From Phytoactinopolyspora mesophila (GTDB lineage Bacteria; Actinomycetota; Actinomycetes; Jiangellales; Jiangellaceae), in NCBI RefSeq assembly GCF_010122465.1, contig NZ_WLZY01000006.1, positions 338,419 to 402,418 of the forward strand: a stretch of 64,000 nucleotides of DNA. Reading direction: 5' to 3'. The notes beneath the pieces were generated by a model, which searched no databases, had not been told where the DNA came from, and was given only the letters and a program-made list of their open reading frames with translations. This document shows, in pieces, positions 8,653-64,000 of the stretch. Both the position numbers and the translations under genes were made by a program. Each line of letters starts with the position of its first letter. Within the stretch, counting starts at the first letter, position 1.

Positions 8653-8843
8653 AGCACTAATGCTCCGGCAAATGAGGTCTCTCCTCGCCCAGCAGACTCG
8701 GTCGGAGGGAGGCTGCGCCATTGTCCTCCCTCACCAGCTGATGGTCGCGCTTGCCGGCTCCCTCGTGCCTCGTCCGCCGGCTCGCCGCTCGACATGCCCG
8801 CCACACCATGGAGAGACCTCATGTGCCGGAGTGCTTCAGTGCT
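8653..8843. repeat. Long inverted-repeat element between convergent etfA and M20 genes
   Basis: Imperfect arms of 32 and 34 nt (8653-8684 and 8810-8843) form an inverted repeat that includes a perfect 13-bp core, ATGAGGTCTCTCC with GGAGAGACCTCAT. The interior contains a further 8-bp hairpin, GAGGGAGG/CCTCCCTC (8705-8712 with 8725-8732). The right arm reaches into the end of the M20 gene. It could act as a bidirectional terminator or be a decayed MITE-like element. I see no coding capacity inside. Confidence 0.6.
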
Positions 8844-59412: not shown

Positions 59413-60060
59413 TCAGTGACCGGCCTTGAGCCAGGCCAGGACCGCCAGCACTCTGCGGTGCCCGTCGTCGGAAGGATGCAGGTCCAGCTTGGTGAGGATG
59501 GAGGAGATGTGTTTCTCCACGGCACCCTCGGTAACGACCATCGCTCGGGCGATGGCGGAGTTGGTCCGGCCCTCGGCCATCAGACCCAGCACGTCGCGTT
59601 CGCGCGGAGTGAGTTGCTCCAGCGGGTCGCGCCGTCGCTGGGCGAAAAGCTGAGCCACCACTTCCGGGTCGAGCACCGTGCCGCCCGAGGCGACGCGCTC
59701 CAGAGCATCGGACAGCTCGTTGAGGTTCGAGACGCGGTCCTTGAGGAGGTATCCCACCCCGCCGGCACCGTCGGCCAGGAGGTCGGAGGCGTAGGACTCC
59801 TCGACATACTGGGACAAGACGAGCACGCCGGTCCCGGGTACCTGTTTGCGGGCCTCGATGGCCGCCCGCAGGCCTTCATCGGTGTAGCTCGGCGGCATCC
59901 GGACGTCGACGATCGCGAGGTCAGGTTTGTGCTCGAGTACCGCTCGCACCAGTTCGGTGCCGTCGCCGACTCCTTCGACGACGTCCGCTCCGGCCTCCCC
60001 GAGCAGGCGCACCAAACCCTCACGGAGCAGCAACGAGTCTTCGGCCAGCACTATTCGCAC
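59413..60060 (-). CDS. LuxR-type response regulator
   Basis: A 215-residue regulator. GTG 60060 begins the receiver (VRIVLAEDSLLLREGLVRLL). The acidic residues are Glu7-Asp8, the phospho-acceptor is Asp52 (IVDVRMPP), then LSQY and Lys in YLLKDRV. The LuxR helix-turn-helix is LTPRERDVLGLMAEGRTNSAIARAM. Regulators of this type usually follow directly after the PF13796-type kinase found here at 61535-62899, but a repeat-flanked gene separates them. Confidence 0.9.
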   Translation of the reverse strand: MRIVLAEDSLLLREGLVRLLGEAGADVVEGVGDGTELVRAVLEHKPDLAIVDVRMPPSYTDEGLRAAIEARKQVPGTGVLVLSQYVEESYASDLLADGAGGVGYLLKDRVSNLNELSDALERVASGGTVLDPEVVAQLFAQRRRDPLEQLTPRERDVLGLMAEGRTNSAIARAMVVTEGAVEKHISSILTKLDLHPSDDGHRRVLAVLAWLKAGH

Positions 60061-60085: not shown

Positions 60086-60184
60086 ACTTCAATACCGCCA
60101 GGTCGTGTCCAGGCCCGAAAACCGGGTATGACCCAACCTGGCGGTATTGAAGTCGGCCTCAACGGCACCTGGCGGTATTGAAGT
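60086..60184. repeat. 99-bp three-motif repeat, copy 1
   Basis: The 18-mer ACTTCAATACCGCCAGGT (60086-60103) is followed by its complement ACCTGGCGGTATTGAAGT at 60136-60153 and 60167-60184. The first two can form an 18-bp hairpin. Copy 2 at 61419-61517 has the same motifs at the same offsets (0, 50, 81) and a related interior. Confidence 0.95.
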
Positions 60185-60194
60185 CGGCATGACA

Positions 60195-61274
60195 TCAGCG
60201 GCCATCCCGCCACCAGTCCGGTGGGAGGATGATCGAAGTGGGATGCGGCGACGGCCAGTCGGCCGGCCCGGGATCTACCGGGCCGACGCCGGGGACGTGC
60301 TTCCACCAGCGAATGGGCACGGAGCGGGGCGGATTGTCGCGCAACAGCCGACCGAATCTGCGGATCATCTCGTCTCGGCGAAAGGCTGCCATCCCGAAGT
60401 CGTAACGCACGATGTCGAGGCCGAGGCGTCGCAGCCGCCATTCCCGTTCTTTCTCCTTGGCGACAATCGCCGCCGCATCCGGGCGGTTATTGTACTTCCC
60501 TGCGCCGTCCGCTTCGTGCGCGGCGAAGTGGTACGGCCACAGCCCGTCGAGGCGGAACTCGGGCTCGTCGGCTCCTACCCAGGCATTGGAGACCGGCATA
60601 GGCAAACCACCGGCGATGACGCCGAACCGGCCGAGAGTCTCGATCGGGCTTTCCGACAGCGGGTCAGCGTTCTGGGCCACCCATCGGGCACGGGTGACGC
60701 CGGGCCACCGAGACATGAAGCGGGTGGCGTCGCCGATGTCGAGCCCTTGCCGGACGACTGCGTCTGCGACCACCAGCGCAGCTGGTATGTCGGTGGTCAG
60801 GGCGATGGTGGCGGCTGCCCATTCCTGGCTGACCAGCCGTACCCGCCTCGTCTGGGAGTGGTGTTCCGGCGGCACGCGGTGCGTCAGGATACGCCCGTAG
60901 GCACTTTGCTTCGGCCCTCTGCCGCGGCGTTTGGGGCGTACGACCACGGGGCGCTCGGGTGGGCGGCCGAGCGTCGGCAGCTGCCACACCGTGACCGCCG
61001 ACCAGCCGGTAAGCAGGGCGTCCACATTGCTGGAGATGGCGAAGGCACGAGCTGACAGCTCGTGCAACTGCCAGCCTTCCGACCTCGCCACCGCTGCCGC
61101 CGACGCATAGACGCCGTCGGCCATCCGGACGAGCAAGCCCGCGCGCTCGAGCTCTGCCAGCCGCTGCGGGCGGACACCGACGTTGCGGGCCAGCCCCACA
61201 TCGATCAAGCCCTCGCACTGGCGGAGAAGCGTTCTGATGTTGGACGGCAGTTGTGTCAGTCGGCGGCCGCTCAT
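60195..61274 (-). CDS. AbiEi-like N-domain with C-terminal PD-(D/E)XK (DUF559-like) nuclease domain
   Basis: A 359-residue protein. The N-terminal winged-helix segment (IRTLLRQCEGLIDVGLARNVGVRPQRLAELERAGLLVRMADGVYA) matches the AbiEi antitoxin start. The C-terminal part has SPIETLGRFGVIAGGLPMPVSNAWV, EFRLDGLWP and AAHEADGAGKYNN, the core of a Vsr/DUF559-type PD-(D/E)XK nuclease (Glu, Asp, Glu-x-Asp). Such two-domain proteins are common in actinobacteria; function is not established. It lies between two 99-bp repeats and splits a kinase/regulator pair, so it may be an inserted cassette. Confidence 0.78.
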   Translation of the reverse strand: MSGRRLTQLPSNIRTLLRQCEGLIDVGLARNVGVRPQRLAELERAGLLVRMADGVYASAAAVARSEGWQLHELSARAFAISSNVDALLTGWSAVTVWQLPTLGRPPERPVVVRPKRRGRGPKQSAYGRILTHRVPPEHHSQTRRVRLVSQEWAAATIALTTDIPAALVVADAVVRQGLDIGDATRFMSRWPGVTRARWVAQNADPLSESPIETLGRFGVIAGGLPMPVSNAWVGADEPEFRLDGLWPYHFAAHEADGAGKYNNRPDAAAIVAKEKEREWRLRRLGLDIVRYDFGMAAFRRDEMIRRFGRLLRDNPPRSVPIRWWKHVPGVGPVDPGPADWPSPHPTSIILPPDWWRDGR

Positions 61275-61418
61275 GGCGATCTACGATGACCGACGACGGA
61301 CCGGGTTGCGCCCCGTCGTCGGCGAATTGTGGACAACCAGGCCCGTCGAGCAGCGCTCGCCTGTGGAAAACGCGCATCTTTCGTTCGCGCGGAACCAAGC
61401 CAAGCAACGCCACGCTCG

Positions 61419-61517
61419 ACTTCAATACCGCCAGGTCGCGTTCAGGCCTGATAACAGGAGATGACGCAACCTGGCGGTATTGAAGTCGGTGTCAATGGCA
61501 CCTGGCGGTATTGAAGT
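61419..61517. repeat. 99-bp three-motif repeat, copy 2
   Basis: The same three 18-mers as copy 1 lie at 61419-61436, 61469-61486 and 61500-61517, in the same orientation and spacing. It follows the stop of the sensor kinase and precedes the AbiEi-like gene. No other gene is seen between 61275 and 61534. Confidence 0.95.
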
Positions 61518-61534
61518 CGAGCGCTAGCGCAGGG

Positions 61535-62899
61535 TCATCTGACCGGGATGTCCGCGTTGACAACAGTGCCGGCGGAGTAGGGACTGTCGAGGGACAGCTC
61601 ACCATCGACACCCGCGAGCCGGTCGGCGAGCCCGGCCAGCCCGTGCCCCTTGCCGATATGCGCGCCGCCGCGACCGTTGTCGGCGACCCGGATACACAGC
61701 AGGTCCCCAGCGGTGAAGACCGATACTTCGCAGCTGGTCGCGCCGCTGTGTTTGGCGACGTTGGTCAGCGACTCGGTGACGACGAAATACGCTGCGTTCT
61801 CGACGGCTGTCGGGAGCCGTTCGTCGGCGTCTAACTGGATGTCGAGGGTCGTCGGAACCGGGCAGCGGGCAGCCGCCGCGGCGAGCGCGGCCGCGAGTCC
61901 CCGGTCGGTCAGGATCGGCGGTGCGATCCCGCGGGACAACGCTCGCAGCTCGGCAAGGGCTTCCTGGGTCTGCTGAAGCGCGCCTTTGACGAGCGGTGCC
62001 GCGGCTTCGGGGTCGTCGTCGAGCCGGCGCTGGGCCGATTGAAGGTCCATGGTCAACCGCACCAGCCGTTGCTGGGGGCCGTCGTGGATGTCGCGCTCGA
62101 CCTTGCGCAGTGTGTCCGCCTCGGCCTGGACGACGGCCTGCCTGCTCCGGGTGAGTTCGTCGGCGCGTGCCCGCAAGGCGGCGTTCTCGTTGGTCAGGAT
62201 GGTCCAGGCGAGGGCCGACTCGATGGCGGCGAGGCCGCGCACAATGTAGGGCAGGGTTATGGCGAATACGACGCCGATGACGGTGTTGACGGTCACGTCG
62301 GCGGCGAACGAGTCCCAGCCCAGCACAAGGTCGGCCAGTCCGCGCTGCTCGTCATCGTCGTGCGGCAGCGACCAAGCCCACAGTGGGTAGGTGATCATCA
62401 ACGACGCGGCGGTCCACGCGATGGTGAAAGACCAGGTGAACACCCGGACCGGAAGGATGATGATGCCGTGGAAGAAGTCCCGCCACAGTTGCGGATCGCG
62501 CAAGTAGCCGAGAATGCGTGAGAAACCCGACTCCTCCGGGTGCCGGTAGTAAGCGGGTCCGACCCTCCTGCCCTCGAGCAGACTGACGCGGCTTCGCTCC
62601 GCCGCCGCGAATCCACGGGCGGTCATCAAGGTGACCAGTAAGACCACGAGACCGACCAGGGCGAGCGGGATCAGCCCGACGCCGAGCCAGAAGCCGGTGA
62701 CCATGAGGGTGAAGGACGCGATGGCGATCGGCAGACCGGGCAGCAGGTACAGCAGGTCGCTGCCTGCCTGGCGCCAGCCGGCCCGTGGCCGCGGCGGGCG
62801 AGACGCCCGATCGGGTCCGTGCGAGGCCTGGGGGGTGGCACCTGGGGTGCCAGGGGAGTAACCGTAGCCGGCTCCTGCGGGGTCTGTGGACCCATACAT
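61535..62899 (-). CDS. Sensor histidine kinase with PF13796-like membrane sensor
   Basis: A kinase of about 454 residues. The N-terminus is Pro/Gly-rich. Hydrophobic segments at about 50-95 and 135-210 form the putative sensor domain. The phospho-acceptor His is in KVERDIHDGPQQRLVRL (about residue 270). The ATPase domain has ESLTNVAKHSGA, VADNGRGG and GHGLAGLADRLAG. ATG 62899 suits the RBS GGAG better than the GTG at 62908. The GTG would overlap the upstream acyltransferase stop. Its likely partner is the regulator at 59413-60060. Confidence 0.9.
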   Translation of the reverse strand: MYGSTDPAGAGYGYSPGTPGATPQASHGPDRASRPPRPRAGWRQAGSDLLYLLPGLPIAIASFTLMVTGFWLGVGLIPLALVGLVVLLVTLMTARGFAAAERSRVSLLEGRRVGPAYYRHPEESGFSRILGYLRDPQLWRDFFHGIIILPVRVFTWSFTIAWTAASLMITYPLWAWSLPHDDDEQRGLADLVLGWDSFAADVTVNTVIGVVFAITLPYIVRGLAAIESALAWTILTNENAALRARADELTRSRQAVVQAEADTLRKVERDIHDGPQQRLVRLTMDLQSAQRRLDDDPEAAAPLVKGALQQTQEALAELRALSRGIAPPILTDRGLAAALAAAAARCPVPTTLDIQLDADERLPTAVENAAYFVVTESLTNVAKHSGATSCEVSVFTAGDLLCIRVADNGRGGAHIGKGHGLAGLADRLAGVDGELSLDSPYSAGTVVNADIPVR

Positions 62900-62904
62900 C
62901 GTGT

Positions 62905-64000
62905 TCACACTCCTACCTTCTCGCGTTCCGGCTGGCCTTGCGAGCCGGTCAACTGGTGAATAGTTGGTGGGGCTACCCCCACTCCGGGCCCGACGCGGGC
63001 TGGGGCCGCGACTGGGCGAGGGCGTGGAACCGCAGGCCGTGCGGTAGGCCGCGATTTCCGGTTGATCAAGAGCAGACCGACCCCGGTGACGACGCCCAGG
63101 CTCGCGCCTACCGGTCCGAGCGGGTGCGTAGCGAGTGCTGGGGAGAATCCGTTCACCGCGAACATCAGTAAGCCCAGTCCTATGAGTACGGTCGCGACGC
63201 CGACCGGCCAGCTGTGCCGGGGCGGTACCGTTCGCACCGAGCGTTCAACGCGAGAACACAGCCGGACGAATACGGCCAACACGAATGACAGGCTCACCAG
63301 CCATAGCGGCATGACCTGCCGCCATTCGGCGCTCAACAGCGCGGGCGTCGCCCATCCGAATCCGACGACGCTGACGCCGCCGACGACGATCAGCGCGGGC
63401 ATGTGCCAGACGTAGATGGTCATCAGGCGGGCGGAGAGCCAATCGATCCCACGAGCTACCGGCGGGTAGGCTGCCCACCTCTCGAGCGCCGGCCGTAGGG
63501 CCAGGGCCAGACCAAGCTGCAGCGCGGTAACGGTCAGCAGTGCGAATGTAGGCGGGTTCATGTTGGACACCGGCTCGCCGGGCATTCCGATCATGCTGCC
63601 CGGGTATGGCCCGGCGGCTACCGCGAGCGTGGTTGCGAACAGACCGAGCCCGGCGACGACGAGCGCCCTCCAGCCGCTCATCCAGCGCAGCCTTCCCGAG
63701 GAGTAGGCGATGCCCAGCTGGTAGCAGGCGATCCAGACGAACGCGACATTGGCGTAGCCAACGATGCCGGTACCGCCGGCGAACCCGAAGCGGACGACGT
63801 CGACCAGTAGCGCACCAACGGCCAACAGCACGATCTCAGCTCCGCGGAGCCTCTGGTGCAGCTGTAACAGCGTGGGTGTCAAGGCGGTGATCAGCACATA
63901 GAGCGCCAGGAACCACAGCAGACGGCCGGCCAGCGCGGAGCCGGTCTCCACTGGATCCGCGGGTACACCGAGTGCCAGCAGCAGATGCGGAAGTGGCAGC
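62905..64000 (-). CDS. Acyltransferase-3-like membrane protein (5' end outside window)
   Basis: The frame is open to the window edge, giving more than 360 residues. It has about nine or ten hydrophobic segments with short loops, including IYVWHMPALIVVGG and WRALVVAGLGLFATTLAVAAG, in the style of acyltransferase family 3 membrane proteins that O-acylate surface sugars. The catalytic His/Arg near the N-terminus is not in the window, so the call is tentative. The C-terminal tail is Pro/Arg-rich and cytoplasmic. It is just upstream of the sensor kinase gene in the same direction. Confidence 0.6.
   Translation of the reverse strand, partial: LPLPHLLLALGVPADPVETGSALAGRLLWFLALYVLITALTPTLLQLHQRLRGAEIVLLAVGALLVDVVRFGFAGGTGIVGYANVAFVWIACYQLGIAYSSGRLRWMSGWRALVVAGLGLFATTLAVAAGPYPGSMIGMPGEPVSNMNPPTFALLTVTALQLGLALALRPALERWAAYPPVARGIDWLSARLMTIYVWHMPALIVVGGVSVVGFGWATPALLSAEWRQVMPLWLVSLSFVLAVFVRLCSRVERSVRTVPPRHSWPVGVATVLIGLGLLMFAVNGFSPALATHPLGPVGASLGVVTGVGLLLINRKSRPTARPAVPRPRPVAAPARVGPGVGVAPPTIHQLTGSQGQPEREKVGV

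Follow-up and report, generated by a model that had tools for sequence, protein, structure and literature searches.

A gene for a predicted nuclease in Phytoactinopolyspora mesophila and a short palindrome dispersed through the same genome form a conserved, sequence-specific pair that diverges together, a conclusion that we regard as nearly certain. On balance, we consider it likely that gene and repeats constitute a two-part system resembling REPIN and RAYT, in which an unrelated enzyme has taken the place of the transposase.

The window analysed here is a stretch of 64,000 nucleotides of the P. mesophila genome. The gene, its two flanking repeats and the neighbouring host genes are located as follows.

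59413-60060, minus strand: LuxR-type response regulator, a flanking host gene (Pfam Response_reg and GerE; syntenic in relatives)
60086-60186, plus strand: copy 1 of the palindromic element, lying downstream of the nuclease gene (hairpin fold; dispersed in its own genome)
60086-60103 (plus), 60136-60153 (minus) and 60167-60184 (minus): the arms of copy 1
60195-61274, minus strand: gene of 359 aa with AbiEi-like and Vsr-like PD-(D/E)XK domains, the proposed partner of the repeat (alignment, AlphaFold, Foldseek, PADLOC)
61419-61519, plus strand: copy 2 of the palindromic element, lying upstream of the nuclease gene (hairpin fold)
61419-61436 (plus), 61469-61486 (minus) and 61500-61517 (minus): the arms of copy 2
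61535-62908, minus strand: sensor histidine kinase, a flanking host gene (Pfam Sensor, HisKA_3 and HATPase_c)

The two elements are direct repeats of 101 nt with 89% identity and a spacing of 1333 nt. As an earlier sequence-only reading of this DNA had described, both contain the 18-mer ACTTCAATACCGCCAGGT at offsets 0, 50 and 81, and they bracket a single gene between kinase and regulator, in agreement with the coordinates and Pfam domains. Arms 2 and 3 of each copy are reverse complements of the arm 1 sequence, each copy being made up of an inverted pair of 18-nt arms 50 nt apart and a third inverted arm, a point that the sequence-only reading did not make. Within the window, 6 matches to the 18-mer were found with up to 3 mismatches, compared with 0 in 100 shuffles. 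The region had no match in PLSDB, and a plasmid origin was set aside.

Across the 6.5 Mb genome of P. mesophila, the 18-mer of this element (type a) had 70 matches with up to 2 mismatches, whereas the reversed pattern, used as a control, had 1. About 40 places carry the inverted pair, and in the 36 complete pairs that were read the arm spacing was 50 nt (32 pairs) or 51 nt (4 pairs). Over these 36 pairs, the arms are 95% conserved compared with 56% for the 32-nt middle and 46% for the outer flanks, and conservation ends abruptly at the arm edges. According to an ORF heuristic, at least 33 pairs are intergenic, the genes on either side being in tandem in 19 cases, convergent in 10 and divergent in 4; among the remaining three, one is intergenic with gene order not assigned and two overlap a predicted ORF. 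Given this number of places, the conserved arms with a variable middle and the mostly intergenic location, the inverted pair is a REPIN-like element, REP-like and intergenic. The three-armed form was met in the genome survey only at the nuclease gene. As a further control, the genome was searched with 11 other intergenic segments of the window, and 10 of them proved to be single-copy. Another intergenic stretch of the window, at 8702-8781 (TCGGAGGGAGGCTGCGCC...CCCTCACCAGCTGATGGTC), recurs at about 9 further genome places and is possibly an element of another system of like kind.

A search of the genome for the Y1/RAYT transposase (PF01797) gave no match, and a RAYT as the mobiliser was set aside; the type-a consensus contains neither GTAG nor CGTC as a conserved tag. 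In Rfam, no family reached the gathering score and the matches were far below it, and a known RNA family was likewise set aside. It is exceedingly improbable that the elements are merely transcription terminators or RNA hairpins: the copies do fold as stable hairpins (z -6.1 and -7.3 for copies 1 and 2) and lie at gene ends, but the lack of an Rfam family argues against this, as does the fact that the arm sequence itself is conserved and specific to the partner protein of each genome.

The product of the gene is predicted to join an AbiEi-like domain, which would bind DNA, to a nuclease domain of the Vsr fold. The N-terminal part matched PADLOC AbiEi models (E 1e-6) and, below the cut-off, the Pfam family PF13338 (E 0.05). 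With the AlphaFold model of the 359-aa protein, which is confident (pLDDT 89, pTM 0.87), Foldseek matched the N-terminal part to AbiEi (6y8q, E 7e-5) and Rv2827c (1zel, E 7e-4), and the C-terminal part weakly to Vsr and I-Bth0305I (TM 0.72 over the target, E-value 1.5). A sequence search of solved structures returned weak AbiEi-type matches alone, the NCBIfam search of the protein gave no match, and no recognised transposase domain was found in it. Residues E208, E212, D243, E254, D256 and K260 are invariant in an alignment of 18 homologues. Their counterparts (one E in addition to E, D, E, D and K) are kept in nine distant homologues, the putative catalytic E, E, D, E, D and K being invariant down to 24-29% identity. 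Conservation is higher in the C-terminal part (0.73-0.83) than in the N-terminal part (0.59-0.60), as expected for a constant catalytic domain joined to a variable recognition domain.

Of 148 genomes sampled from the class, 109 have homologues (E <= 1e-20). Most of the homologues examined, in P. mesophila and across Actinomycetes, have a palindromic element of their own at their flanks; it varies in sequence between homologues and is dispersed chiefly in the genome with the matching gene, a specificity that the sequence-only reading had overlooked. Elements flank the homologue on both sides in P. limicola, Haloactinopolyspora alba, P. halophila, P. halotolerans and genome G002, as well as at paralogues b and c of P. 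mesophila. The P. limicola homologue is flanked by pairs of ACTTCGCTACCGCCAGAT, that of H. alba by ACTTCGATACCGCCAGGT, and those of P. halotolerans and G002 by GTGTCACCATCCGT and CTTTCTGTACCGG. Within P. mesophila, a second copy (C6:428529, 68% identical) is flanked by pairs of CTTCGATACCA, and a clade B copy (C1:1340825, 39% identical) has GCTTCGTGGCCT pairs on both sides. Homologues of 27-34% identity in P. mesophila and P. limicola likewise have matching flanks; for some Jiangella homologues, the scan detected an element on one side or none. A dyad score of at least 16 on at least one side was obtained for 15 of 22 homologues compared with 2 of 198 control windows. Outside Jiangellaceae, flanks matched with a score of at least 17 at 14 of 19 loci, of which two (L308 and L312) could be low-complexity matches, compared with 2.3% of permuted pairs; this null is given as the fraction at that score because L316 has long stretches of flank in common with four other loci. 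Inverted flanks that resemble transposon ends occur in several lineages, and at L283, L303 and L305 inverted terminal repeats of about 50-90 nt enclose the gene.

At L283 (G000:C10:53100-57100), a distant homologue in P. mesophila, the inverted repeats are near-perfect (match score 59, tag GATCATG) and recur at several dozen places in the genome, often as overlapping matches on opposite strands. Two Phytoactinopolyspora species have orthologous homologues (L282 and L286) that precede a RimO-like gene and differ in their flanking palindromes. In Hoyosella altamirensis, a member of another order, the homologue (L180) apparently lacks the N-terminal part and has matching palindromes on both sides; it was likely acquired by horizontal transfer.

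The pairing was tested by searching concatenated flank elements against whole genomes. In the first set (eight elements, six genomes), the elements occurred at 10, 10, 14, 10, 23, 1, 7 and 9 places in their own genomes, and a single weak match (E 0.003) was found off the diagonal. The second (eight elements, seven genomes) and third sets (twelve elements, eleven genomes) gave a similar picture, with most elements dispersed at copy numbers that are lower bounds. The pairing is nearly exclusive; Jiangella species share element types, and the type of the H. alba clade B gene matches J. muralis. For several cognate elements, one copy or a small number was found (G011b, Hoyosella, G082 and the L286 type of P. 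limicola). The type-a arm is common in P. mesophila, P. limicola and H. alba, all of which have a close gene, and has few copies in G002. Related arms group on the protein tree. For arms chosen by eye, arm distance correlated with protein distance (Mantel r 0.51, 0 of 2000 permutations), also within clades (0.28, 5 of 2000; 0.41, 1 of 2000).

These results bear on the defence-related family in which the sequence-only reading had placed the gene. PADLOC and the fold uphold the AbiEi assignment, Pfam being weak. A defence role found no support, as no AbiEii partner is present: kinase, regulator, ACT-domain and acyltransferase genes surround the gene, with no AbiEii/DUF1814 nucleotidyltransferase toxin gene among them. 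That an ordinary AbiE-like defence gene lies by chance between two unrelated REP-like repeats, as its PADLOC matches might suggest, is very improbable, considering the missing toxin partner, the mostly single-copy control flanks and the different repeat that every homologue has of its own; the pairing across genomes contradicts it. The defence-cassette reading is therefore largely replaced by one in which the gene is the partner of the repeat.

We compared the kinase-regulator junction in six relatives. The gene and both elements are missing in four of them (P. alkaliphila, G009, P. halotolerans and P. halophila) and present in two. In P. limicola they occupy the identical place, and in H. alba they adjoin the regulator, with other genes separating them from the kinases; at L105:6500-10950, the stretch from the second kinase gene to the nuclease gene holds TetR, MFS transporter and phosphoesterase genes. 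In P. alkaliphila, G009 and P. halotolerans, two kinase genes are followed by the regulator with no nuclease gene there, just about 45 nt separating the genes in the first two and about 1.3 kb of other genes also lying between kinases and regulator in P. halotolerans. The gap in P. halophila measures 122 nt and holds no nuclease gene. Two tandem paralogous kinases precede the regulator in most relatives, and one does so in P. mesophila, P. limicola and P. halophila.

The sequence-only reading had offered two alternatives, namely that the cassette came in together with its repeats, or that the repeats are REP-like and mark the ends of genes. The junctions bear out the first and the genome survey the second, and the two belong together. 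That reading would have yielded to a repeat widespread next to unrelated genes combined with a gene present here in all relatives; the repeat is indeed widespread at gene ends, but the gene is not at this junction in all relatives. Its expectation of an empty site with one repeat copy failed: direct reading of the P. halophila junction revealed no element, a type-a pattern search found no pair at the junction in any of the four gene-less relatives, and a single leftover repeat, the scar that deletion would leave, was looked for and found in none of them. Recombination between the direct repeats may be able to remove the gene, a possibility that no such site bears out. The history of the gene at this site may be one of vertical inheritance with losses or of repeated insertion.

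The same junctions help to weigh a homing-type selfish gene, in which the nuclease would cut solo elements and repair from the element-gene-element cassette would spread the gene, solo elements being targets and scars of gene loss. We consider this quite unlikely. It would account for the position of the gene between two direct copies of its own element, the homogenised arms and the kinase-regulator region occupied alike in P. mesophila, P. limicola and H. alba, and the putative Vsr-type fold is shared, by a match with a weak E-value of 1.5, with the homing endonuclease I-Bth0305I. However, each gene type occurred once in the genomes searched, where element sites number in the dozens, and the empty junctions carry no element and therefore no homing target.

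About five element positions are orthologous between P. mesophila and P. limicola (four compared directly and the gene's own site), and many copies are therefore old rather than freshly inserted. The arms of these orthologous elements follow the consensus of each species. At two of the four directly compared sites, P. limicola instead has the element embedded in a mosaic repeat several hundred nt long. Many element copies of this species (L142-L160) lie within the mosaic repeat, together with GATCAGATGC-type palindromes and repeated ACAAGGAGGCTTACTG, and several of its contigs end inside it. In P. mesophila, a type-c arm is found about 50 nt from a type-a element at C1:1204842-1204978, forming a BIME-like mosaic. 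The site of one P. mesophila element (L024) is empty in P. limicola, with sequence aligned on both sides and no apparent target-site duplication; for the solo elements L127, L134 and L135, the gene order beyond the element differs and the comparison is uninformative. Copies of type c are concentrated near their gene (12 of 28 within 182 kb, or 2.8% of the genome; P 4e-12), and types a and b show no clustering near theirs.

Based on these data, we propose the protein as a single-copy partner of the palindromic element. By analogy with AbiEi antitoxins, which read 23-bp inverted repeats (PMC7319586), we infer that the AbiEi-like N-terminal domain recognises the 18-nt arm, and two inverted arms 50 nt apart would position two protomers. 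The C-terminal Vsr-like PD-(D/E)XK domain would then nick or cut within or beside the element, and repair would copy the element to new intergenic sites and homogenise existing copies to the current arm sequence of the lineage. The gene itself would be carried between two element copies. The protein probably mobilises or converts the elements in this or a variant manner. The same kinds of argument linked RAYTs to REPs (PMC2817692, PMC3116915).

Alternatively, the protein could be a host DNA-binding protein and the palindromes its genome-wide sites, kept by selection rather than mobility, with roles in gene-end regulation, supercoiling, chromosome maintenance or autoregulation. Arms far more conserved than loops (95% and 56%) and elements at gene ends would fit such operators, as would the element located 145-245 nt upstream of the gene start, given that AbiEi proteins autoregulate through inverted repeats (PMC7319586). 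We nevertheless judge it unlikely, as the invariant nuclease residues, the type-c clustering, the empty site in P. limicola and the transposon-like inverted ends in other lineages speak against it; in addition, sister species keep sites while element sequences turn over.

The proposed repeat-partner system shares much with the REP/REPIN-RAYT systems (REPtrons) of Proteobacteria (PMC2817692, PMC3116915, PMC3733652): palindromic intergenic repeats in inverted pairs with conserved arms and a variable middle, a cognate gene flanked by repeats specific to the gene-bearing genome, several pairs per genome and mosaic arrangements. It differs in that the partner is a predicted AbiEi-like/Vsr-like nuclease instead of an HUH/Y1 tyrosine transposase, that type a has no conserved GTAG/CGTC tag, and that the flanks are often in direct orientation. 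As the defining transposase is absent from the genome, it is not a member of the REP-RAYT family, though it would function in the manner of one. The N-terminal winged-helix fold is shared with AbiEi of the AbiE type IV toxin-antitoxin system and with Rv2827c, and the inverted arm pairs recall the paired 23-bp inverted repeats bound by AbiEi proteins; unlike AbiE, there is no neighbouring toxin gene, the predicted C-terminal fold is that of a nuclease and the sites are dispersed. With Vsr-like (EDxHD) homing endonucleases such as I-Bth0305I it may have in common the PD-(D/E)XK catalytic domain, by a weak fold match and by the conserved acidic residues and lysine, but the protein has an extra AbiEi-like domain, and the gene lies outside any intron or conserved protein gene and is flanked by dispersed palindromes. 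MITEs and insertion sequences are likewise short and dispersed, and inverted terminal repeats occur at three of the loci examined; however, there is no recognised transposase domain, the gene is largely single-copy per type, and no target-site duplication was apparent at the one empty site.

We therefore think it fairly likely that AbiEi/Vsr-type nucleases across Actinomycetes are a hitherto unrecognised repeat-associated class that generates palindromic interspersed repeats and also maintains them. They would be a counterpart of REPIN/RAYT of independent origin, with genomes able to contain several pairs, each evolving its own recognition sequence. We call it a new kind because the enzyme is unrelated; if any pair of repeat and partner gene counts as one kind, it is a variant. 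The open-access papers searched contain no description of the pairing, and an earlier one may exist elsewhere. If true, the proposal would name a candidate source of interspersed palindromic repeats for a phylum in which the homologues are common, and would bear on the question of repeat families without a dedicated transposase (PMC3733652). Annotations as lone AbiEi antitoxins or DUF559 proteins would have to be revised for many genes, and nature would supply a large collection of protein-DNA pairs from which to learn how the recognition domain reads its arm. The REPIN/RAYT arrangement would then have arisen more than once, with unrelated enzymes.
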